NCBI GenBank assembly: GCA_003130815.1
Contig: QFDA01000001.1
Span: 76,131 to 140,130 of the forward strand
Direction: 5' to 3'
Length of the DNA stretch: 64,000 bases
Origin: Bacteroidetes bacterium SCGC AAA795-G10
GTDB taxonomy: Bacteria; Bacteroidota; Bacteroidia; Flavobacteriales; Flavobacteriaceae
In this document: piece by piece, positions 738-11,959 of the stretch
How positions within the stretch are numbered: position 1 is the first letter of the stretch
Layout of the letters: each line of letters begins with the position of its first letter
Program-made: the position numbers and the translations under genes
The notes under the pieces: model-generated
Told to the model about the DNA's origin: nothing
Seen by the model: the letters and a program-made list of their open reading frames with translations, nothing else
Databases searched by the model: none

Positions 738-3098
738 CTAAAAGAATAAAACAAATCCAAAAGTAGGTAGTGGTGAACTATTTCCTTCTTGATTAGATAC
801 AGGAACTAAATTTTTAGGTATTATAACAGTACCATCCAGATTTCTGTTTAATCCGTATTCTGTTGGAGTAGGGTTTGGTTGAGCTAAAAAATTTTGTACC
901 TCGAAATATAAGTTAAATGAAAGATTCTTAAAATTCCATTTTTTATCTATTCGAATATCTGCAAGATTGAAAGCATCTAGTCTAAATTCTCCAAGTGTAT
1001 CGTAATCTAAAATAATTTCTGGATATGAAATAGTACTTGCATTAATATCAACCGGAACATAAGGGTTTTTTCCAGCATACCTCCATCGAGCACTTATCTC
1101 CCAATTTTTCCTTAGTTTGTAACCTCCAGAAAATGAAATAAGATGACGACTATCCCATACGGAAGGTCTCAAGATTCCATCTAGACCAGAAAATTCACTG
1201 GAGAAATAGGTATAAGCCAAAATACCATAAAAGTTTTTGGCTAACTTTTGTTGAAATAAAAATTCCAAACCGGATGTTTTACCTTCTCCTAGAGATAGAA
1301 TAGCTTCATTGCCTAAAACTTCAAATCCTCCCCCTTTATTTGCAAGTGATACACCATCAATCAAAGAAACAGGAAACTGCGAATAATTTTTCAAGAATCC
1401 CTCTACGGTTAATCTTGAAACTGATGTTAGATTATATTCTAAACCAGCCACATAGTGTTCGCTTTTAGTGTATTGAGCAGATTTATTAACAAAAACTGAT
1501 GAGTTGTTCTGAAAACCCAACATTGTGTAGGTAGGAATTTTAAAATACCTGCCAATGGAAGCATTAAATTTCCATTTTTGATCCTGGGAAAGGGAATATG
1601 AAAATGAAAGTCTTGGAGAAAAATTGTCGATTAAATTTGATCCAGTTGAAAAGGTGTCAGCATCAGTTCTTATACCTAAAGAAATATTTAGTCTTTGATT
1701 AAAAAAATTATTCCCAGCTTTTAGAAATAAACCATATTTAAAAAAATTTAAATCTGTTTCATAAAATATATTTTCTCTTAAAAAACTTGTTCCATTTTTA
1801 TAACTTGAATTTTGAACATTAAATCCTGCAGACCATTTCCAATCATTTACAAATTGTGTTATGCTAAAACGTAACTTTGTTTCCCACTCATAAGAATCGT
1901 TTTGAAAAATAATTCCAGTTTTATTTACATTGTCAAGGTATCTTGAAAAAACATTTCCTAGCCTGTTCGAACTAAGGGAAGTTGATGTAAATCCATTCCC
2001 ATTTTTAAAGTTTTTCTTCCATGACAATCCAACTGTAGTAGTTCTTTGTTCGATAATAGGCACTTGCTCTAGTGTTGCTTGTTGTTCTGCATCAAACTGA
2101 TCTGGTTGCTTAACAGAAAAATTATCTATTGAGCCCAAACCTATAAAAGTTAGATTATTATAACGGTCTAACTCATGTTTTACTTTCCATTGGTAATCCC
2201 AGTAATCCGGTCGTATTGGCAATCCAATGAGTTCAAAAAGAAATTGTAAATAACTTCTTCTCGCTGAAAATAAAAAGGTAGTTTTTGAAGGTTCAGTTTT
2301 ATTTTTTCTGAAGAGGGGACCTTCCAAAGTTAGTCCTGCTTCACTAGCTCCAAGTCTAAAATTACCACCAAATCTGTTTGGGTCACCCTCTCTTTGTTGA
2401 AATGATAAAACACCTGAAAGTGGATTGTCAAATTCCGCACCAAAGGCAGAGCTTGTAAGAGTTACTTCCCTAATAAATGAAACATTAATCATACCAACAG
2501 GTCCACCTGCACTTCCCTGCGTACTAAAATGATTAATGTTTGGTATTTCGATACCATCTAAATAATAAACAGTTTCATTAGGTGCTCCCCCCCTTATAAT
2601 TATGTCATTCCTAAAACCACCTATTGAGGGAGAAATACCTGGCATGCTTTGTACTACTTTAGTAATATCATTGTTTCCGCCAGGGTAAGTTTCAATTTCA
2701 ACAACTGAAAATGTTTGAGTTGATAAGGGAGTTTCACTACTTGTCTTAAAAGGGTTACTTGAAACTATAACTTCCTCAAGATCTTCGGATAATTCATTTA
2801 ACTCAAATATTAAAGGAATATTTCCAGCTGATTTTACAATTACATTAAATTGTTTAGTGGTTTGATATCCTAAAAAGCTAGCTTCTACATTGTATGATTT
2901 AAAGGGGATTTGGTTTAAAATGAAATAGCCATTAGAATCTGTTATAGTTCCAATATTTGTGCCCTCAAGAATTATTGTTGCTCCCTGTAATGGTTGTTGG
3001 GTTTTTTCATCAACAATGCGACCATTTAATGTTCCTAGGTTTTGAGCACAAACAGCTTTAATACATATAAAAACTATTAATGTTAATACCTTTCTCAT
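738..3098 (-). CDS. TonB-dependent outer-membrane receptor with CarboxypepD_reg-like domain
   Basis: About 786 residues. The ATG at 3098 is chosen over an in-frame TTG at 3113 because it begins a clean signal peptide (MRKVLTLIVFICIKAVCA, then Q). Next come a carboxypeptidase-regulatory-like beta-sandwich (residues about 20-110), a plug domain with SMPGISPSIGGFRND and IIIRGGAPNETVYYLDG, and a long beta-barrel ending in FGFVLFF, the terminal aromatic expected of Bam substrates. This is the SusC/FecA-type importer organisation. There is no SusD partner beside it, so substrate is unknown; a siderophore, vitamin or peptide is as likely as a glycan. It is a single-gene unit, tail-to-tail with rimM and divergent from the Rieske gene. 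Confidence 0.9.
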   Translation of the reverse strand: MRKVLTLIVFICIKAVCAQNLGTLNGRIVDEKTQQPLQGATIILEGTNIGTITDSNGYFILNQIPFKSYNVEASFLGYQTTKQFNVIVKSAGNIPLIFELNELSEDLEEVIVSSNPFKTSSETPLSTQTFSVVEIETYPGGNNDITKVVQSMPGISPSIGGFRNDIIIRGGAPNETVYYLDGIEIPNINHFSTQGSAGGPVGMINVSFIREVTLTSSAFGAEFDNPLSGVLSFQQREGDPNRFGGNFRLGASEAGLTLEGPLFRKNKTEPSKTTFLFSARRSYLQFLFELIGLPIRPDYWDYQWKVKHELDRYNNLTFIGLGSIDNFSVKQPDQFDAEQQATLEQVPIIEQRTTTVGLSWKKNFKNGNGFTSTSLSSNRLGNVFSRYLDNVNKTGIIFQNDSYEWETKLRFSITQFVNDWKWSAGFNVQNSSYKNGTSFLRENIFYETDLNFFKYGLFLKAGNNFFNQRLNISLGIRTDADTFSTGSNLIDNFSPRLSFSYSLSQDQKWKFNASIGRYFKIPTYTMLGFQNNSSVFVNKSAQYTKSEHYVAGLEYNLTSVSRLTVEGFLKNYSQFPVSLIDGVSLANKGGGFEVLGNEAILSLGEGKTSGLEFLFQQKLAKNFYGILAYTYFSSEFSGLDGILRPSVWDSRHLISFSGGYKLRKNWEISARWRYAGKNPYVPVDINASTISYPEIILDYDTLGEFRLDAFNLADIRIDKKWNFKNLSFNLYFEVQNFLAQPNPTPTEYGLNRNLDGTVIIPKNLVPVSNQEGNSSPLPTFGFVLFF

Positions 3099-3135
3099 GT
3101 TATAAAAATACAATTAAAAGAATTCAAAAATTTAT

Positions 3136-3177: not shown

Positions 3178-3633
3178 ATGAAAAATAGACGAAATTTTCT
3201 CAAAACCGCTTGTAAACCGATAGTTTTAGCAACACTAGGAATTCCAATAATTGAGGCCTGTTCTACTGAAGAAGATTCTAATGTAACAGCTCCAACTAAT
3301 TCGACACCAACAGATAATTCGTCGTCTCAAGCCAGCTCAAGCAATGAACTTGAAATTGATTTAGATGATAACAGATTTTCCTCTTTAAAAGAAGTTGGTG
3401 GTTGGTTAAACTTCACTTCTGAAAATATTTTATTAGTAAGAATTAGTGACAGTGAGATTAGAGCATTTGATAATGCTTGTCCACATCAGGGTACCAGGAA
3501 TCGATGGTCATTTGATGGGAGTAATTTTACATGCGCTCGCCATGGAAACTCATTTAGTGCATCGTGCAGTGGTTCATTAAAATGTTTTGATACAAGTTTA
3601 GACGGTAATATTCTTACTGTAGATTTAGGGTAA
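3178..3633 (+). CDS. Exported Rieske [2Fe-2S] lipoprotein
   Basis: A 151-residue protein. The N terminus combines a twin-arginine pair (NRRNFLK, Arg4-Arg5) with a lipobox-like IIEAC ending at Cys28, followed by a Ser/Thr-rich linker to about residue 58. The Rieske fold (about 60-151) has both cluster motifs, C101-P-H103 and C119-A-R-H122. Two extra cysteines, C130 and C136, follow the second motif. Tat export would fit a cofactor loaded in the cytoplasm. It acts as a one-electron carrier or the ferredoxin part of an unknown enzyme; no oxygenase or cytochrome b subunit is adjacent. Function in the cell is not established. Confidence 0.88.
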   Translation: MKNRRNFLKTACKPIVLATLGIPIIEACSTEEDSNVTAPTNSTPTDNSSSQASSSNELEIDLDDNRFSSLKEVGGWLNFTSENILLVRISDSEIRAFDNACPHQGTRNRWSFDGSNFTCARHGNSFSASCSGSLKCFDTSLDGNILTVDLG

Positions 3634-3637
3634 TCAG

Positions 3638-4198
3638 TCAATTTTTTTTTTCTGATTTTCTCTCAATTTTTCTTTGCTCTTTTTGCCTATTTTTTTGTTC
3701 AACGGCATTAATTGCATCTTGTTTTTCTTTTTCTCTTTTGTCGTACTGTTGACGAAGTTCATCTAAATCCTCATCACCTATTTTCTGCTGATCACTAGCT
3801 TGTAGAGCTCCATCCTCAACACTAAAACTAGCATTTTGGGTTTGTTTGCGCATAATTTCTTGAGCCGACTTTAGGTTATAATAAACTCCAGGATCAATCA
3901 TTTTATTTGCAACATAATGCTGCTTTTTTTGTTTATCCCAACGAACAAATACAAATCCGCCAGTAACAGAATCTAATTTTACTCGAAAGACATGCGAATA
4001 ATTTGGAAGGCTTTGATAAATCTCAATTTTTTCAGGTACATAACCTGCAACATATAAAAGCTCTTCAACAAATGCAGTTTGAGTAACTAATGATGGATCA
4101 TTATAATTTCCTTCTATTAAAGTTTCATCTTGTGCAACAACAAATAATGTACTTGTTATAGAGAACAATAATAATTGTAGTACTTTATTGTTAATCAT
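3638..4198 (-). CDS. Hypothetical periplasmic protein with charged coiled-coil tail
   Basis: A 186-residue protein that I do not recognise. It has a signal peptide (residues 1-22, ending FVVAQ), a compact domain at about 25-115 with alternating hydrophobic and aromatic residues (GGFVFVRWDKQKKQHYV), and a strongly charged, probably helical Lys/Glu/Gln-rich tail from about 140 to the end. The tail suggests a coiled coil or nucleic-acid or envelope contact, but nothing more specific. It converges on the Rieske gene with a 4-bp gap and lies 66 bp beyond the end of the next TonB receptor on the same strand. Confidence 0.65.
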   Translation of the reverse strand: MINNKVLQLLLFSITSTLFVVAQDETLIEGNYNDPSLVTQTAFVEELLYVAGYVPEKIEIYQSLPNYSHVFRVKLDSVTGGFVFVRWDKQKKQHYVANKMIDPGVYYNLKSAQEIMRKQTQNASFSVEDGALQASDQQKIGDEDLDELRQQYDKREKEKQDAINAVEQKNRQKEQRKIERKSEKKN

Positions 4199-4264
4199 TC
4201 ACACTGAAAATTTTATAATACTTAAAGTTATTATAAATATTTTAAGATAAAATTACGTTGGTGA

Positions 4265-6685
4265 TTAATAATTAAAATTAAGTTGAATTTGGAGATTTCT
4301 TCCCAACTCAGATGAATAGTAACGCATTCTGTTAAGATAGTCTCGATAATCGCTATTTAAAATATTTTGGGCTATCAATCTTAAATTAGTTGTAAGATTT
4401 TTTTGATTCCTTATTTGTAACGAGAAAATAGCATCAAATCGATGAAATCCAGAAGGAGACTCGCTAATATCAACTGTTTTTGAAACAATTGTTCCGTCCT
4501 CTATATAATCAAAAATGAAATTAGAGTCTGGAAATCTATTTTGTTTTGCGCTTATGTGATTGGATATCTCAAAAGTCCATTTACTCTTTTTGGGTGAAAA
4601 TTTTAATTTTTGAAAAGAATTTAGAGGGGGAATTAAAATTAGAGGCTGAGAATTTAATATGTCCTGGGCATATACATATGAAGCTCCAATATCAAATCTA
4701 AGATTTTCTATTATTGATTGAGAATAATTAAGATCAATACCTGTCAAAAAAGCGTCTGTACTCTTGTATGTCCATACTGGAAAAGCGCCTCTGATAGTTT
4801 GTTTTAATCCTGTTGGTTCTATGAAAATGTAGTTAAAAGTTTTTGAAATAAAAGGCTCTAATGACCAATTATAATTTGGTTTAGTTTTTGATAAACTCAA
4901 AAGAAATTTGTGACTTGTCTCGGTATTTATACTTAAGTTCCCGTATTCAATAGCCGCCATGGCATGATGTAATCCATCACTAAATAATTCAGAAGGATTT
5001 GGAGCTCTTTGGGACAAGATGTAAGAAATATTAAATTCAGAATTGTCTGATATTTTTTTTGAAATACCAGTTTGCGCGGAAACATTTAGATAATTGAATT
5101 TTGGGTTTACTAGGATTTGATTTGCAAAATTGGTTCCTGTTTCAAATTCATTAAACAAGACATCGTAATTTCTTTCTTCCCAAACTGATGTATAATAATA
5201 TTTTTTAGCGTCATAAAACACATGATCTAGTCTTAATCCCCACTCCCATAAAAAGGAGTTGGATTCCTGATAGCTTCCTAGAATATAGATTCCATTCTCA
5301 AACTTAATATAATCAGGAATTAGTCTTTTTACGCCAGTATCTGGAGTAGAAAAGTTGTCTTGAATTAATCCATTGTATCCAAATTCAAAGTCCCAATTTT
5401 CCATTTTTATATTTGAAAAACCTAACATTAAATTATGAGTTTTAAGTAGTAAATCAACTACCGGTATATTTGTTCTACCACCTCTTCTTATATCAAACTC
5501 TTTTCGTTTGTTGTTTTGATAGCTATATCCAAAATCAAGTTTAACATCATTTTTCAATGATCTGAAATATTTAAATGTTAACCTTTGATGACTGGCTCTT
5601 TGATTTGGGGCCCCTACGTTATAAGTGAAATCGTCAATTATTGATGGTTCGCTAGAATTAAGTGCAAAAAATAAATCTTGGACATTACCAATATGTGATG
5701 CCTTTAAAATTCCAGGCTCTAAATTATAATTTGAATATTTTAAATTCCATCCTTTTGAAACTAAATCCTTTCCAAGTTTTATTGAAAAATCTACTTCTTT
5801 AAATCCAGTATTTGAAAGGATATAATTTGGAGTATTAAAGTCCCCATATCTTTTACCTGTAAAATTTCCATTTATATAAAATCCGCTTGAATAATTTTTT
5901 TCAAGTCTAGATCCAAATTTTCCTCCCCAACCGTTAGATTCTAAATTTATAAATGAGGTTCCAAAAAGTGAATCTCTTAAAACCTTTCTTTTGGAACTTA
6001 AGATAATTGAACCTGCAGATGTATCTCCACCGTATTTTAAAGCAGCAGCCCCTTTTATAAGTTGAATTGTTTCAAAAGAATCGAAATCAACATTTGGTGC
6101 ATGGTCAGGGCCCCACTGTTGATCGTACTGCCTAAATCCATCGGTCACAATACCAACTCTACTTCCATACATACCGTGAATAACTGGCTTGCCAATTGAA
6201 TTTCCAGTTTTTAAAATTGATGCACCAGGGATATAATTTAATGCGTCAACCAAAGTATTACTTCCATATGAATTAATTTCACTTATATCAACTAAAACTT
6301 CCTGAACTGATTTTCTAGTTCGAGAAAGCCTAGAGTCAGATACTATAATTTCTTCTAATTCATTTATATGGTGTTCTAATTTTAAATCAAATATTTTGTT
6401 TTCTTTAAGATTAATGTTTTTGGTTTTTGATTTACAATTTGGATGGCTAATATTTAAAATATATCTACCAGGACATATTCCCTCTATTTCGAATTCTCCA
6501 TTTAGATTCGTTTGTGAAAAAAAATTGGTACCCTTAATTTGTATAAGGGCACCAATTAAAAAAGTGTCATCGTGAAAGTCAGTGACTTTACCTTTTAAAA
6601 ATAAATTGCATTCTTGACTATAAGTAAGATTCCAAATTAATAAACAATTCAGAATAAAATATAGATGTATTGATTTGTGTTTCAA
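4265..6685 (-). CDS. ZnuD-like TonB-dependent receptor (probable zinc uptake)
   Basis: An 806-residue outer-membrane receptor. The start is TTG at 6685, directly after the TAA of the upstream lipoprotein gene; there is no in-frame ATG before the plug, so translation is probably coupled. It has a signal peptide to about residue 23, a carboxypeptidase-like domain (about 25-110), a plug with VHGMYGSRVGIVTDG-type sequence and the QWGPDHAPNVD segment, and a barrel ending IQLNFNY. The PDHA segment just before the plug's conserved ending resembles zinc receptors of the ZnuD type. Together with the adjacent Fur/Zur-family gene and His-rich small proteins, this points to zinc. Copper or another metal is not excluded. 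Confidence 0.82.
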   Translation of the reverse strand: MKHKSIHLYFILNCLLIWNLTYSQECNLFLKGKVTDFHDDTFLIGALIQIKGTNFFSQTNLNGEFEIEGICPGRYILNISHPNCKSKTKNINLKENKIFDLKLEHHINELEEIIVSDSRLSRTRKSVQEVLVDISEINSYGSNTLVDALNYIPGASILKTGNSIGKPVIHGMYGSRVGIVTDGFRQYDQQWGPDHAPNVDFDSFETIQLIKGAAALKYGGDTSAGSIILSSKRKVLRDSLFGTSFINLESNGWGGKFGSRLEKNYSSGFYINGNFTGKRYGDFNTPNYILSNTGFKEVDFSIKLGKDLVSKGWNLKYSNYNLEPGILKASHIGNVQDLFFALNSSEPSIIDDFTYNVGAPNQRASHQRLTFKYFRSLKNDVKLDFGYSYQNNKRKEFDIRRGGRTNIPVVDLLLKTHNLMLGFSNIKMENWDFEFGYNGLIQDNFSTPDTGVKRLIPDYIKFENGIYILGSYQESNSFLWEWGLRLDHVFYDAKKYYYTSVWEERNYDVLFNEFETGTNFANQILVNPKFNYLNVSAQTGISKKISDNSEFNISYILSQRAPNPSELFSDGLHHAMAAIEYGNLSINTETSHKFLLSLSKTKPNYNWSLEPFISKTFNYIFIEPTGLKQTIRGAFPVWTYKSTDAFLTGIDLNYSQSIIENLRFDIGASYVYAQDILNSQPLILIPPLNSFQKLKFSPKKSKWTFEISNHISAKQNRFPDSNFIFDYIEDGTIVSKTVDISESPSGFHRFDAIFSLQIRNQKNLTTNLRLIAQNILNSDYRDYLNRMRYYSSELGRNLQIQLNFNY

Positions 6686-7231
6686 TTACTCAACTATAGA
6701 CACTGGGATATCGATGGAAACATCATTATACCCTCCAAAACCTTCTCTTGTAGTAGCATTAAAATTTGTCGGTTGATGTATTAAATATACTCTTACCAAA
6801 CCAGTTCCAGTGGAACTCGCATTCCATACACTATTTAGAAGTACGCCTCTACTTCCAACTTTTGTATCGTTTGATGCTGAGGTTACATTTACAGAAACAT
6901 CCGCAAATTCAAAAAATACCTGATGCTCATCGGCCTCATCAATAATCTCTAATGTTACTTCCTCAACATCAGTCGGATCACTACTATTAATGAATCTTAT
7001 TCCAACATTATGATCGGTATTTACTTTTAAACTAATTGTCTGTGAGTTCATTTCACTCAAGTCCCAGTCTACTGTTTGTGACGTTCCATCTGCAGATTCA
7101 ATTGTCATCAAAACATTTGAAATAAATTCTTGCTCGTTTACAGCATCTGGATCGTCTTTACTACATGAGACAATAAAAAGAAAAGCTAAAAAAAGAATTT
7201 TTGCTTTTTTAAATTTTGTGTAAAATTTCAT
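6686..7231 (-). CDS. Lipoprotein partner of the ZnuD-like receptor
   Basis: About 181 residues from the ATG at 7231; the frame is open further upstream but only this start gives a lipoprotein signal (KILFLAFLFIVSC, then SKDD). The SKDD directly after the lipidated Cys is typical of exported Bacteroidota lipoproteins. The mature part is a beta-rich single domain with the motif DEADEHQVFF near the middle and an IHQP motif near the end. I recall similar flavobacterial lipoproteins next to zinc-type TonB receptors, sometimes annotated only as a periplasmic-binding-fold protein. It is the first gene of the unit, joined to the receptor by TAATTG. A role in metal capture at the surface is inference. 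Confidence 0.75.
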   Translation of the reverse strand: MKFYTKFKKAKILFLAFLFIVSCSKDDPDAVNEQEFISNVLMTIESADGTSQTVDWDLSEMNSQTISLKVNTDHNVGIRFINSSDPTDVEEVTLEIIDEADEHQVFFEFADVSVNVTSASNDTKVGSRGVLLNSVWNASSTGTGLVRVYLIHQPTNFNATTREGFGGYNDVSIDIPVSIVE

Positions 7232-7263
7232 AATAAATTTTTTGATTAAATGATTTAAATTAA

Positions 7264-7278
7264 TGCAACTCAGTTGCA
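7264..7278. promoter_or_regulatory. Perfect 15-bp palindrome, candidate Zur operator
   Basis: TGCAACT-C-AGTTGCA: seven-base arms around one central base. It sits in the divergent region between the metal-lipoprotein/receptor unit (start 7231, minus) and the Fur/Zur-family gene (start 7331, plus). It overlaps the candidate minus-strand -7 box by two bases, the position expected for a repressor site. The link to the adjacent regulator is inference. Confidence 0.65.
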
Positions 7279-7284
7279 AAAATA
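7277..7284 (-). promoter_or_regulatory. Candidate -7 promoter box of the zinc receptor unit
   Basis: On the minus strand this reads TATTTTTG, an exact match to the Bacteroidota -7 consensus TAnnTTTG. It is followed immediately by the 15-bp palindrome and then the lipoprotein ATG at 7231. Upstream, where the spacer to a -33 element would be, lies a 13-base T run (A on this strand); I see no clear TTTG -33 box. Confidence 0.5.
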
Positions 7285-7289
7285 AGTAC

Positions 7290-7302
7290 TTTTTTTTTTT
7301 TT
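7290..7302. repeat. 13-base homopolymer in promoter spacer
   Basis: Thirteen consecutive T bases lie 6 to 18 bp upstream of the candidate -7 box of the zinc receptor unit. Tracts of this length can change by slippage and would alter promoter spacing. Confidence 0.7.
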
Positions 7303-7330
7303 GAGGAAAAAAAATAAATAAATTTGTTAT

Positions 7331-7720
7331 ATGGGTATACATAGAAAAACTTCTTCACTTAATACCTTGTTAAAGGAATTCAATAATGATATAAGCGCTA
7401 TCACAGTTGTAGATCTTGTAAGTCGTTTAGGAGATAAAATGAACAAAACAACTATCTATCGTATCCTTAACAAGTTAGAAGAGGACTCTATATTACATTC
7501 ATTTTTTGGGAAAAATGGGTTAAAGTGGTATGCAAAATGTGATGGGTGTTGTAATAGCAAGCCTGAATCAATCTTAAATAAATTTCGTCCACATTTTCAA
7601 TGTCTTAGTTGTGGTAAAATAGATCGCCTTAACATAGAAATGAAATTACCAAAAGTGACTGATCAAAAAGTTAGTGTATCGCAATTATTGATTCAAGGAA
7701 GATGTGAATCATGTAATTAA
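7331..7720 (+). CDS. Fur-family metal-responsive regulator, probably Zur
   Basis: A 129-residue protein, near the short end for the Fur family. The N-terminal winged helix (about 1-75) has the recognition-helix motif TTIYRILNKLEE where Fur proteins have TVYRTL. The C-terminal dimerisation domain begins near PHFQC and has the two structural zinc pairs C91-x2-C94 and C125-x2-C128. Three more cysteines (C70, C73, C74) precede it. The His-rich stretch seen in iron-sensing Fur before this Cys is reduced to one His (H88). It is divergent from the ZnuD-like receptor unit, with the palindrome between. Zinc is the best guess; iron or peroxide sensing is not ruled out. Confidence 0.85.
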   Translation: MGIHRKTSSLNTLLKEFNNDISAITVVDLVSRLGDKMNKTTIYRILNKLEEDSILHSFFGKNGLKWYAKCDGCCNSKPESILNKFRPHFQCLSCGKIDRLNIEMKLPKVTDQKVSVSQLLIQGRCESCN

Positions 7721-7762
7721 TTGATATTTTTCATTAATAAGAAACTTAGTTTAAATTTTAGA

Positions 7763-7800
7763 TAAAAAAAATTGGCCTTACACAAATATGCAAGGCCAAA
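7763..7800 (-). terminator. Intrinsic terminator after the His/Asp lipoprotein gene
   Basis: Arms TTGGCCTT (7772-7779) and AAGGCCAA (7792-7799) form a perfect 8-bp stem with a 12-base loop. On the minus strand the stem is followed by a run of seven T. It ends the leftward unit that includes the 44-residue lipoprotein gene and also separates it from the convergent regulator gene. Confidence 0.85.
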
Positions 7801-7831
7801 ATCACTATTATCGTTAAATAATTATTTTTAC

Positions 7832-7966
7832 TTAAGCAATGTTAGCTGAAGAATCTTCTACTAATGCAGAATGATCATGTCCATCGTGATCGTCATGATC
7901 ATCGTCTTCACAAGAAATAACAGCGAAGGATGCAAAAGCGAATAATAATAATAAGTATTTTTTCAT
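7832..7966 (-). CDS. 44-residue His/Asp-rich lipoprotein
   Basis: A very small gene, ATG at 7966 and TAA at 7834-7832. The product has a canonical lipoprotein signal (MKKYLLLLFAFASFAVISC, lipidated Cys19) followed by EDDDHDDHDGHDHS, with four His (24, 27, 30, 32) and many Asp in 14 residues, then a short polar tail. The acidic/His stretch looks like a metal-binding tag. It lies 29 bp after the His-rich membrane protein gene and is followed by a good terminator, which supports it being a real gene. A periplasmic or surface metal buffer or shuttle is inference; size and composition have no enzyme signature. Confidence 0.75.
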   Translation of the reverse strand: MKKYLLLLFAFASFAVISCEDDDHDDHDGHDHSALVEDSSANIA

Positions 7967-7995
7967 TTTAAAAAGTTTTAATTGTTAGTTAATAT

Positions 7996-8286
7996 TTAAT
8001 AATTACCGAAAAAAAAATTCGGTGGACCTCTATCTCTTAGATTATTGAAACTCAATCTATTGTAAATAGAAGTATTATTAAATATGTATTTAAATAATGT
8101 TTGAGCATTATTTAAAATTATTTCACTATTAAAATGATATTCAACTAAAGGCTGGTAATAAATATCTAGAAAATCATTATGCTTATTAAAATTATGAATA
8201 TGAGTCTGTTCATGAGAACATTCAATTTTATCAAAGTGATAATCAAATATATGTTCCAGTTTTAAACCCATAGGGATTAAAAACAT
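7996..8286 (-). CDS. His-rich membrane-anchored small protein
   Basis: From the ATG at 8286 the product has 96 residues with seven His in the first 51 (12, 17, 25, 29, 31, 36, 51), one Cys23 and a C-terminal NNLRDRGPPNFFFGNY segment. The ATG cuts into a hydrophobic segment; the same frame is open to a stop at 8364 and encodes SVVSIFLIAMFLIPMGL with a preceding KTKNPN. The true start may be a non-ATG codon upstream, for example CTG at 8349, one base after the DUF1080 stop. Similar small flavobacterial proteins with one N-terminal helix and a His/Cys-rich tail are common but uncharacterised. A metal-related role is inferred from composition and neighbours. Confidence 0.65.
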   Translation of the reverse strand: MFLIPMGLKLEHIFDYHFDKIECSHEQTHIHNFNKHNDFLDIYYQPLVEYHFNSEIILNNAQTLFKYIFNNTSIYNRLSFNNLRDRGPPNFFFGNY

Positions 8287-8350
8287 GGCTATTAAAAAAA
8301 TTGAAACAACAGAATATAGAGGACTAATATTTGGGTTCTTCGTTTTCAGA

Positions 8351-9076
8351 CTATAATTTTTTTATTTTAATATTTTTATATGAAATTATTCCTGGGTGAT
8401 CTTGTAGGGTAATATGTCCTTTTTTGTATTTCCCGAAACCTGACATGTCTCTAAACTTGCTATTCTCGACCATTGAATCCCATTCTGGGCCAGTTAATGG
8501 AAAGCTGTTTACAATTATTCCATTAAGAAACACAGTTCCTTTGTTCTTATTGTGGTTTACTATAATGTGATACTTATTCCACTCACCTGCTTTTTTTGAT
8601 GGTTTAGAACTTGGTGGGATCATATCATAAAGTGCACCAACAGTATGCTTTTGATGATCAGGATCATCACCGTAAATATCAGCATCTATTACTTGGATTT
8701 CCGGGCCAGTAACATGTGGATGTTCATACATTTTGTCTTCACTTACTCCCCACATAAAACCGCTGTTCGAACCTGGGGAAACCATCCACTCAAACTCAAT
8801 TTCAAAACTTTCAAAGACTTCGTCTGTTAGCAAACTTTTATTTCCTTCACCGGTTGCGTTACTTGCATTAAAAGTAAAAATACCATTCTCAACAGTCCAT
8901 CCGCTTTTTCCACCATCTTCATTCTGGTATATATGCCAGCCCCTGAAGCTATCCTGTTGTGATAGAAGCAGCCAGCTAGACTCTGGCTTCTTTGAAGTTT
9001 CTTTATTACTTTCTTTGGAAATTTGTTTACAACTTACAAATGCGATAGATAAAAGAATAATTATTCTACATGTCAT
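8351..9076 (-). CDS. DUF1080 (3-keto-disaccharide hydrolase-type) lipoprotein
   Basis: A 241-residue protein with a lipoprotein signal (LSIAFVSC, lipidated Cys16) and one DUF1080 domain over about residues 35-241. It is a concanavalin-like beta-sandwich fold with the usual landmarks: GWTVENGIF, DEVFESFEIEFEW, SNSGFMWGV, TGPEIQVID, EWNKYHII and GHITLQDH. Members named 3-keto-disaccharide hydrolase cleave oxidised sugars; many are only annotated by domain. The exported, lipid-anchored form suggests outer-face sugar processing. It stops just before the His-rich protein frame, so that downstream gene may share its transcript. Specificity cannot be read from the sequence. Confidence 0.88.
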   Translation of the reverse strand: MTCRIIILLSIAFVSCKQISKESNKETSKKPESSWLLLSQQDSFRGWHIYQNEDGGKSGWTVENGIFTFNASNATGEGNKSLLTDEVFESFEIEFEWMVSPGSNSGFMWGVSEDKMYEHPHVTGPEIQVIDADIYGDDPDHQKHTVGALYDMIPPSSKPSKKAGEWNKYHIIVNHNKNKGTVFLNGIIVNSFPLTGPEWDSMVENSKFRDMSGFGKYKKGHITLQDHPGIISYKNIKIKKL

Positions 9077-9159
9077 TATCCAAATATTTAAGTAAAAGTA
9101 ATGAATTCTTTAAAAGTCTTAGATTTAATTAAGGTAAAGATGTAAACAAAAATTAAAAT

Positions 9160-10113
9160 TTAAAGCTTTCGAGCTTTTAGTTTTTCCGTCAATTTTGGAA
9201 CGATCTCAAATGCATCCCCAACAATACCATAATCTGCTGCTTTAAAAAAAGGTGCTTCCGGGTCATTATTAATTACAACCTTGACTTTTGAGGAATTAAT
9301 CCCGGCTAAATGTTGAATTGCACCTGAAACGCCAACCGCTATATACAAATTTGATGCAACAGGCTTACCAGTTTGACCTACGTGTTCACTATGAGGTCTC
9401 CATCCCATATCAGATACAGGTTTAGAACAAGCAGTAGCGGCACCTAGAACGTCAGCCAAGTCTTCAATAAGATTCCAGTTTTCTGGTCCTTTTAATCCAC
9501 GTCCGCCTGAAACAACAATATCTGCGTCTGCAATAGTGACTTCACCTTTTAATCTATCTACCTCAGTTACTTTTAAACTTTTAGTTGAAGATATATATGT
9601 GCCTTTTAAATATTCACAAGTTTTATTTTGTTCTTCTAATCCAAAAGAATTTGATGAAAGTGATAAAATTACTCGGTCTTTTAAACTTTTATTCTCATTG
9701 TATGCCTTATTCGTAAAACAAGAACATTTAACTTGAATAGGATCGTATTTTGTTGGTAATCCAACTACATTTGAGATATAGGCTGAATTAACTTTAACAG
9801 ATAAAATTGGTCCTAAATATCTTCCATCAGCAGATGAGCTTACTACAATTATGCTTGCTTTTTCCTTTTCTATTAGTTGAGAAATACTATCACTATAACT
9901 TTCTACATTAAAAAAATTATCTTCTTTTGTTTCTATGTTATAGAATTTATCAACTCCATAAGACTCAAGTATTATTGTGTTATTAATATTGAATCCTACT
10001 CCAACTAACTCATAACCTTTAGCATCAGCTATAGCTCTAGAATAAGAAGCTATCTCTAAACCTGTTTTTTTAACATCTCCGTCTTGTGATTCAATAAATG
10101 CAAGTATTTTCAT
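9160..10113 (-). CDS. etfA: Electron transfer flavoprotein, alpha subunit
   Basis: A 317-residue protein of normal length. The C-terminal FAD domain (about 195-317) carries the family signature: VSGGRGLK, HVGQTGKPVASNLYIAVG, SGAIQHLAGINSSK and ADYGIVGDAFE. EtfAB accepts electrons from acyl-CoA and other flavin dehydrogenases and passes them to ETF:quinone oxidoreductase. It follows etfB with a 9-bp gap, so the two subunits are made together. No dehydrogenase gene is in the window; presumably the pair serves fatty-acid or amino-acid oxidation encoded elsewhere. Confidence 0.96.
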   Translation of the reverse strand: MKILAFIESQDGDVKKTGLEIASYSRAIADAKGYELVGVGFNINNTIILESYGVDKFYNIETKEDNFFNVESYSDSISQLIEKEKASIIVVSSSADGRYLGPILSVKVNSAYISNVVGLPTKYDPIQVKCSCFTNKAYNENKSLKDRVILSLSSNSFGLEEQNKTCEYLKGTYISSTKSLKVTEVDRLKGEVTIADADIVVSGGRGLKGPENWNLIEDLADVLGAATACSKPVSDMGWRPHSEHVGQTGKPVASNLYIAVGVSGAIQHLAGINSSKVKVVINNDPEAPFFKAADYGIVGDAFEIVPKLTEKLKARKL

Positions 10114-10939: not shown

Positions 10940-11953
10940 TTAATTAATGTCTTTAACCAATCTAAATCCAGTATGTTGGAGTCCTGTGTCTGGTGAGGAT
11001 TTCATTCTAGCTGAAACCCTATATCCAGAACAATAAGCGTCATTGCACAAAAAAGATCCTCCTCGCATGACCTTTTGTTTAAGATAAGGTTGGTAAGGAT
11101 CATAAGGCTTCTCAGGCCCTTTTGGATTTGATAACTTCTGATCTTTTATTTTCGAATAATAATTAAAATCATACCAATCTGAACACCATTCCCATACATT
11201 CCCTGCCATGTCATAAAGCTCAAAAGAATTTGGTTCAAATGATCCAACTGGAGCAGTATAAAAGAAATTATCTCTTTGTTCATTAAAATAAGGGAAACTT
11301 CCCTCCCATGAATTTAATTTTGGTGATCCAGAGTTCAAATCTTCATTACCCCATGGGTAAATTGAATTTTTTCTACCTCCTCGAGCAGCCCATTCCCACT
11401 CAGCCTCTGTTGGTAATCTTTTCCCTACCCACTTAGCATAGGCAATTGCATCATACCAGGATATATGAACAACAGGATGGTCACCTTTCCCTTCTATATT
11501 ACTATCTGGACCCATAGGATGTTTCCAATTTGCCCCGGGTTGCCACTTCCACCACTGATTGTGATAATTTAAATTTACAGGGCCTTGTGAAGAAGTAAAT
11601 ATTAATGACGCTGGTTTAAAAAGAGAATCATCTGGTCTTGGGGTATTGGGTGGGAGTTCCTTTTTAATATCTTCCCACTTGGGGGGAATCTCTGCTGTAG
11701 TTACGTAGCCTGTTGCTTCAACGAATCGTGTAAATTGACTATTGGTGACCTCAGTTTGATCGATCCAAAAAGAATCAACATAAACAAGGTGCTTTGGAGA
11801 TTCATCTTTTCTTGAAAATTTTTCTTCACTACCCATTAAAAAACTCCCTGAGGGAATCAATACCATTCCTTCTTTCTTGACTATGTTACTTTCAAAGTTA
11901 TCTTGATTACACCCAAGAAATAAAATTGAGGCTAATATTAGGAGGCGTAACAT
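10940..11953 (-). CDS. Formylglycine-generating-enzyme-type lipoprotein (SUMF1/FGE domain)
   Basis: About 337 residues from the ATG at 11953 (an in-frame TTG lies one codon upstream). A lipoprotein signal ends at Cys15 (ILFLGC). The FGE-sulfatase domain runs from about residue 28 to 337: IPSGSFLMGSEE, WIDQTEVTNSQF, HPVVHISWYDA, KRLPTEAEWEWAARGG, YDMAGNVWEWCSDWY. The C-terminal motif GGSFLCNDAYCSGYR carries both cysteines (C303 and C308) that in true FGEs bind copper and oxidise the sulfatase Cys to formylglycine. It is therefore a plausible active enzyme, not just a structural homologue. It lies 6 bp after xylA, so belongs to that unit. No sulfatase is in the window, and the exported location is odd for a sulfatase activator. 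Confidence 0.85.
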   Translation of the reverse strand: MLRLLILASILFLGCNQDNFESNIVKKEGMVLIPSGSFLMGSEEKFSRKDESPKHLVYVDSFWIDQTEVTNSQFTRFVEATGYVTTAEIPPKWEDIKKELPPNTPRPDDSLFKPASLIFTSSQGPVNLNYHNQWWKWQPGANWKHPMGPDSNIEGKGDHPVVHISWYDAIAYAKWVGKRLPTEAEWEWAARGGRKNSIYPWGNEDLNSGSPKLNSWEGSFPYFNEQRDNFFYTAPVGSFEPNSFELYDMAGNVWEWCSDWYDFNYYSKIKDQKLSNPKGPEKPYDPYQPYLKQKVMRGGSFLCNDAYCSGYRVSARMKSSPDTGLQHTGFRLVKDIN

Positions 11954-11959
11954 CAAATA

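Follow-up and report, generated by a model that had tools for sequence, protein, structure and literature searches.

Lipoprotein partners accompany the TonB receptors of the HmuR/HmuY, BtuB/BtuG and SusC/SusD systems. Zinc import across the outer membrane is known from ZnuD of Neisseria meningitidis, a Zur-controlled receptor with solved structures (PDB 4rdr, 4rdt, 4rvw) in which the metal is bound by D99, H100, E340 and H499 (Calmettes et al. 2015, PMC4557270). In Caulobacter crescentus, according to the excerpted text of PMC4176598, the TonB receptors ZnuK, ZnuL and ZnuM are repressed by Zur, and ZnuK and ZnuL are important in zinc shortage. For Bacteroidota, descriptions of zinc import across the outer membrane seem to be few. 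The listed open-access literature matches, a scope mostly outside subscription journals, include no flavobacterial Zur regulon or receptor-lipoprotein zinc pair; the nearest of them, as far as its excerpt extends, deals with ZntR and ZupT of Riemerella anatipestifer (PMC11960050). The main text of a Zur review (PMC6103462) contains neither 'Bacteroid' nor 'Flavobacter'. Here we describe a 4.1-kb island in a 64,000-nucleotide stretch (the window) of contig QFDA01000001.1 from the small marine flavobacterium Bacteroidetes bacterium SCGC AAA795-G10, whose draft assembly comprises 1.93 Mb and is 88.7% complete. All five open reading frames (ORFs) listed for the island in a first-pass annotation of the sequence were confirmed in the window, namely those for a receptor (REC), a lipoprotein (LIP), a Fur-type regulator (ZUR), a mini-lipoprotein (MINI) and a small His-bearing membrane protein (the RGPP protein). 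The island is likely to encode a zinc-repressed outer-membrane zinc importer composed of a ZnuD-type receptor and a surface lipoprotein partner.

The receptor

The REC gene (4265..6685, minus strand) starts with a TTG codon immediately 3' of the LIP stop and encodes a TonB-dependent receptor of 806 amino acids containing the Pfam domains Plug and CarbopepD_reg_2. A profile built on 25 receptors retrieved ZnuD as the first solved chain (E 7.4e-26), and the predicted fold of REC (predicted local distance difference test, pLDDT, 81.5) also gave ZnuD 4rdr as the top match (E 4.1e-34), followed by the copper receptor OprC. The plug and barrel of TonB receptors are shared with ZnuD, with 15% identity in the fold match. 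Residues D194, H195 and H573 of REC are aligned with D99, H100 and H499 of ZnuD (chain offset 14). Among 58 fetched receptors, an alignment that excludes L080 (no LIP ORF by blastp), position 195 is H in 58/58 and position 573 is H in 54, while position 194 is occupied by E in 53 receptors and by D in the other 5; the position equivalent to E340 is acidic in 38. Judged by profile and predicted fold, ZnuD is the closest solved relative of REC, and the ZnuD-like receptor of the first-pass annotation is supported.

Several features of the receptor weigh against zinc as its cargo. The fourth zinc ligand of ZnuD, E340, pairs with G403 of REC. The NCBIfam ZnuD model NF038289 is not reached (56 bits, cut-off 950) and is outscored by the models for heme receptors (71.9 bits) and copper receptors (71.5 bits), all far under cut-off. 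By fold OprC follows ZnuD closely, and when a single sequence was used for the search it came before ZnuD. Moreover, heme receptors clamp their ligand between a pair of opposed histidines at these same places, and the substrate of such receptors is hard to predict (PMC4557270), so that the ligands of REC suggest, rather than prove, zinc.

The rank of OprC and the heme and copper scores would be in keeping with an alternative in which the REC-LIP pair imports another metal, a metal complex (copper, cobalt, metallophore) or heme throughout the family, and the genus merely added Zur control. The predominance of E at position 194 and the lack of exact operators at cassettes outside the genus (see below) point the same way, as does the location of 21-24 of 59 loci near gene clusters which we take to be for serine synthesis. 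Nevertheless, this alternative appears unlikely, since three of the four ZnuD ligands are matched, one of them by a histidine present in every receptor aligned, and zinc import is the easiest explanation of Zur control.

The receptor-lipoprotein pair

LIP (6686..7231, minus strand) is a lipoprotein of 181 amino acids with the sequence CSKDDPD at the lipidation site; translation probably begins with the ATG at 7231, downstream of the start listed for the ORF (7342). LIP was matched in 64 of 149 sampled genomes of the family. Strong matches to REC (E < 1e-120) occurred in 60 of the 149, every one of which also matched LIP. The LIP locus was fetched from 60 of the 64 genomes and contained REC in 59; in the remaining one (L040) a contig end truncates the locus. 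A scan of named genomes yielded 588 confirmed stretches, and among the best 80 of these LIP adjoins REC in 79 (the exception is L291). Polaribacter irgensii 23-P (L233) and Cellulophaga fucicola (L249) are cultured environmental bacteria that carry the cassette. The usual gene order is RGPP-REC-LIP, while RGPP-LIP-REC is found in the window's group; the adjacency resembles the SusC/D-like arrangement of Bacteroidota. The pair is the core of the island, and most of the gene set goes beyond chance neighbourhood.

No Pfam or NCBIfam model was reached at cut-off by the LIP of the window, and searches of families and solved structures with other LIP members gave weak matches, apparently to signal peptides. 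The confident structural model (pLDDT 90) is a beta sandwich, for which a fold search of the PDB returned no matches at E 0.001, the best being RhoGDI (E 1.5e-3). Neither sequence nor fold matched HmuY, SusD, BtuG or other known partners. An alignment of 41 LIP members has seven columns without any variation, including C23, E35, H103, H152 and D170. The LIP homolog of one genome (L305, G029, 1468-2040) carries a MINI-like DGDHDDHDH run right behind the lipid cysteine, as if the functions of LIP and MINI were joined in it.

Surface-exposed lipoproteins of Bacteroidota are taken to be marked by at least two acidic residues among the six that follow the lipid cysteine, as stated in the excerpted texts of PMC12578637 and PMC6222051. 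Both LIP (CSKDDPD) and MINI (CEDDDHD) fit this export signal, and 49 of 54 readable LIP members (of 58) have at least two acidic residues in the five positions after the cysteine. These residues make a periplasmic place unlikely for either protein and indicate that LIP is probably located on the cell surface; the surface-to-periplasm zinc relay suggested in the first-pass annotation needs revision on this point. The assembly contains a ZIP permease and one cobW gene, and no ZnuA was found at threshold in this 88.7% complete draft; zinc may therefore cross the inner membrane via ZIP.

The regulator and its predicted operator

ZUR (7331..7720, plus strand) is a member of the Fur superfamily with 129 amino acids (Pfam FUR, 26.3 bits, and 23.2 bits in the genome scan; cut-off 23.1) and a predicted zinc-responsive repressor. 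A perfect palindrome, TGCAACTCAGTTGCA, which had escaped the earlier reading, lies between LIP and the regulator (7264..7278, no strand); its distance to the start codon is 32 nt on the LIP side and 52 nt on the zur side, both codons being ATG. It overlaps a candidate -7 box of the minus strand, TATTTTTG (7277..7284), which fits the Bacteroidota consensus TAnnTTTG. A generic sigma-70 scan was barely above shuffled sequences (19 found; mean 14.3, standard deviation 3.9). The palindrome is the sole exact TGCAACnnnGTTGCA in the 1.93-Mb assembly.

Close orthologs of ZUR (>100 bits) are present in 22 of the 149 genomes, the window's genome counted. When the window's own locus is left out, 23 close-ortholog loci remain, and in 18 of them TGCAACTnAGTTGCA or a near copy occurs at most 110 nt upstream of the regulator ORF or at its 5' end. 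Of the 22 genomes that hold a close zur, 18 contain an exact TGCAACTnnGTTGCA, as against 15 of the 127 other genomes, in which it lay inside an open frame in 9 of 14 cases examined; the reversed control pattern occurred in 4 of 149 genomes. Rodionov et al. (2004) predicted ATGCAACnnnGTTGCAT as the Zur site of Desulfovibrio, with ATGCAACtgaGTTGCAT in D. desulfuricans (PMC545781, excerpt), and the core of this site is identical to that of the window palindrome. Pfam analysis of the neighbours at four zur-ortholog loci identified MerC and GTP cyclohydrolase I (L134, L142) and cobW-type GTPases (L140, L152); GTP cyclohydrolase and COG0523 genes are recurrent in Zur regulons, according to an excerpt of PMC2770081. 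The shared core, together with the sites and neighbours of the orthologs, makes Zur the best name for the regulator. The Fur-type protein is thus best read as Zur, which narrows the Fur/Zur-type assignment of the first-pass annotation, and TGCAACTCAGTTGCA on the LIP-REC promoter is its predicted operator.

The family scores of ZUR are weak and count against this name. The NCBIfam Zur model PRK11639 is not reached (13.6 bits, cut-off 167), and the best NCBIfam match within the Fur family is an iron Fur model (24.6 of 220), as might be expected if the protein were a different metal sensor such as Fur or PerR. Such an identity is highly improbable: the operator equals the predicted Zur site and is unlike the palindrome that the excerpt (PMC545781) shows for Fur, the orthologs are accompanied by folE and cobW, and the best PDB match, though weak (E 0.0079), is the zinc uptake regulator FurB.

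The distribution of the operator likewise contains points unfavourable to zinc control of the system. The palindrome is missing near 5 of the 23 close zur loci, and near the regulator at all 4 more distant loci inspected. The assembly contains no second exact operator, the cobW and ZIP loci included. Outside the genus, 14 cassettes come from genomes that hold a close zur elsewhere, and none of them carries the exact operator; near-matches among them are a site with one mismatch located 892 nt upstream of REC (G017) and one with two mismatches (G019). When the sequences preceding the cassette in other members of the family were examined for enriched palindromes, a weak AAATTC-n5-GAATTT signal emerged in 7 of 128 sequences, compared with a maximum of 4 in ten shuffles. 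Since no exact operator was seen at cassettes outside the genus, the ligands alone carry the zinc reading there.

Receptors of a second group (about 23-31% identity) were considered as alternative Zur targets; upstream sites with at most two mismatches were found in only 1 of 15 loci (L142); two of the 15, L162 and L170, adjoin or are LIP-type pairs. At L142 (G001), operators beside zur precede a one-strand run of genes encoding MerC, FolE, a small His protein and the group 2 TonB receptor, apparently an alternative receptor under the same kind of control.

Distribution of the components within the genus

REC is present in 21/21 genomes of the genus searched. Twenty-two loci were examined (these 21 and G137), and the counts cover the 19 in which 1 kb or more of sequence precedes REC, G398, G404 and G402 having too little upstream DNA. 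LIP occurs in 19/19 of these loci, an RGPP gene in 17, MINI in 8 and an adjacent zur in 3. An exact operator is located upstream of LIP in 6 of the 19 loci, and G397 has one with a single mismatch; the distance to the LIP ATG is 85-87 nt in G406 and G415 and 28-32 nt elsewhere. All seven exact operators within 228 kb of genus loci are in LIP or MINI promoters, the second operator of G410 lying directly upstream of MINI. Neither zur nor operator occurs in G137. The locus of AG-404-F06 (L222), whose receptor is 96% identical, has zur and MINI and an operator with one mismatch. In L330 and L331 (G397 and G410), the cassette is retained apart from the RGPP gene, which was not found upstream.

In a receptor tree of 25 rows, with character states assigned by hand from locus inspection, MINI marks a clade of 12 rows, the operator a 9-row clade inside it, and the adjacent zur a 4-row clade inside the latter, each of the three nested branches being supported by 100/100. 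Exceptions are G397, without MINI, and G398, which is cut by a contig end and was left unscored. Relatives within the genus bear the LIP-REC operator without zur at the locus. The inclusion of the regulator in the island, as in the first-pass annotation, thus applies to the window, where zur stands beside LIP-REC, and does not extend beyond one subclade. On a simple reading of these patterns, the operator was in place before zur arrived beside it; alternatively, an earlier adjacent zur may have been lost. If the operator did come first, the genus would present a readable series of regulon growth, with MINI followed by the operator and then by the regulator gene at its own operator.

The small proteins

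MINI (7832..7966, minus strand) is a mini-lipoprotein of 44 amino acids, the mature part of which comprises about 26 (CEDDDHDDHDGHDHSALVEDSSANIA). Its homologs retain the lipobox and an HDDHDGHDH-like run. dN (non-synonymous divergence) was lower than dS (synonymous divergence) in 6/6 measurable pairs of the 8 tried, with ratios of about 0.05 to 0.26 (dN 0.118 and dS 1.593 for the pair G000-G410). MINI is under purifying selection, and the His/Asp-rich mini-lipoprotein of the first-pass annotation is conserved. A search of 397 family genomes revealed short-frame copies outside the genus in G081, G065, G095 and G327; in 14 of the 19 matched genomes the match lay within a long frame and was not counted as a MINI copy, and one of these 14 (G029) is the LIP described above.

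The RGPP protein (7996..8349, minus strand) has 96 amino acids from the first ATG (8286) and up to 117 from a CTG at 8349. Its start is uncertain, because the relatives L217-L219 show a TTG just past the stop of the upstream gene. It has a hydrophobic N-terminal segment, seven His residues and the motif RGPP close to the C-terminus. An ORF of this type, defined by R/K, then G/A/S/P, then PP near the C-terminus and by at least three His residues, is present within 1.9 kb upstream of REC on the same strand in 133/139 loci, as against 7/139 in a control interval (1.9 kb downstream of REC, both strands). Together with the occurrence of LIP in all 60 genomes with a strong REC match, this answers the neighbourhood check proposed with the first-pass annotation: LIP and the small His-bearing protein co-occur with the receptor. 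MINI is located directly 3' of a small His-bearing protein in 13 of 14 loci (the exception is G410).

Some loci argue against a role of these proteins in the zinc importer. MINI of the window has no operator of its own. In G065 (L326, 1807-3971), the RGPP-MINI pair, which lies just past the REC gene on the opposite strand, is found beside PepSY-like and HMA/MauE genes, neighbours that may point to another metal. In G327, MINI and a small His protein occur with no REC within the 15 kb fetched. Because of these two genomes, zinc is perhaps not the sole context of MINI. RGPP and MINI could then constitute a separate metal or envelope-stress module that chances to sit upstream, in keeping with their own terminated transcription unit in the window. 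This is possible, although doubtful given the frequency of RGPP-type ORFs upstream of REC, the operator of MINI in G410 and the MINI-like run in the G029 lipoprotein.

If, as we prefer, the small proteins belong to zinc import, MINI might tentatively be regarded as a new class of metallo-lipopeptide, a lipid-anchored, surface-displayed His/Asp peptide of 26 residues that amounts to the detached His-rich loop of a zinc-binding protein. Together with LIP, it would form an external zinc antenna feeding the TonB receptor. Both zinc binding by MINI and any 'relay' are conjectural.

Transcription units and neighbouring genes

The minus strand carries, in order, a 3-keto-disaccharide hydrolase-like gene (8351-9076, Pfam), RGPP, MINI, LIP and REC, with ZUR on the opposite strand between MINI and LIP. 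A terminator-like hairpin of 12 pairs followed by a T tract (7772..7799, minus strand) is located after MINI, so that the minus strand comprises at least two transcription units. The MINI and RGPP genes run towards the 3' end of the regulator gene and are shut off by this hairpin (7799-7772). Therefore, the island does not form one unit around a single divergent promoter, as had been thought: the divergent promoter region (7232-7330) serves only the regulator and the LIP-REC pair, and MINI belongs to a transcription unit apart from LIP-REC. No Rfam family was found at gathering score in 3500-9200.

Genes for a second TonB receptor (738-3113) and a 186-amino-acid protein (3638-4198) travel with the cassette in much of the genus. 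Between them lies the gene of a Rieske-domain protein with a lipoprotein-like or Tat-like N-terminus (3178-3633). An ORF with Leu/Lys repeats (1-261) seems to be a low-complexity tail translated in the wrong frame; the gene after it is presumably rimM-like. Farther away, an FGE-sulfatase-like lipoprotein (Pfam) is encoded at 10940-11956, with neighbours that we take to be xylose isomerase and xylulokinase genes. In other genomes, 17 of the 59 cassette loci (L034-L093) have an opposite-strand gene about 3.4 kb past the REC start, presumably for GTP cyclohydrolase I.

Proposed mechanism

When zinc is ample, Zur would occupy TGCAACTCAGTTGCA, which covers the -7 and start region of the LIP-REC promoter and lies beside the zur promoter, and both would be blocked. 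In zinc shortage, Zur would release the operator. REC could then draw zinc across the outer membrane through a buried D194/H195/H573 site at the expense of TonB energy, while LIP would dock on REC and capture or pass on zinc or a zinc complex. MINI, as a lipid-anchored His/Asp peptide, may buffer or collect zinc near LIP and REC, with the RGPP protein acting as a conserved companion of the receptor. Import could be completed by the ZIP permease.

Comparison with known systems

ZnuD of N. meningitidis, with plug D-H and loop H ligands that align with those of REC, is the closest solved structure. In comparison with it, the REC island has an additional N-terminal CarboxypepD_reg-like domain, a paired lipoprotein and the RGPP protein, and E340 is unmatched. 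OprC has the next closest fold, but no D-H pair faces D194-H195 of REC in the aligned stretch shown. The operator of Caulobacter differs, being GTTA-n5-TAAC in the sites shown, and a lipoprotein partner is unmentioned in the excerpted text (PMC4176598). The predicted Zur site of Desulfovibrio has an identical palindrome core but, in the excerpt of PMC545781, controls an ABC transporter (zur_D/znuABC). XusA/XusB of Bacteroides thetaiotaomicron likewise combines a TonB receptor with a lipoprotein and has a different ligand (PMC12574912, in part). The ligands of XusA/XusB, HmuR/HmuY, BtuB/BtuG and SusC/SusD are a siderophore, heme, B12 or glycans, whereas LIP matches no known family at cut-off. 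Both the operator and the receptor site lend themselves to testing, and the locus adds two lipoprotein families that are still uncharacterised. As far as can be judged from sequence, the system appears to be of a known kind, that of Zur/ZnuD-type zinc import, in a form that includes these lipoproteins.

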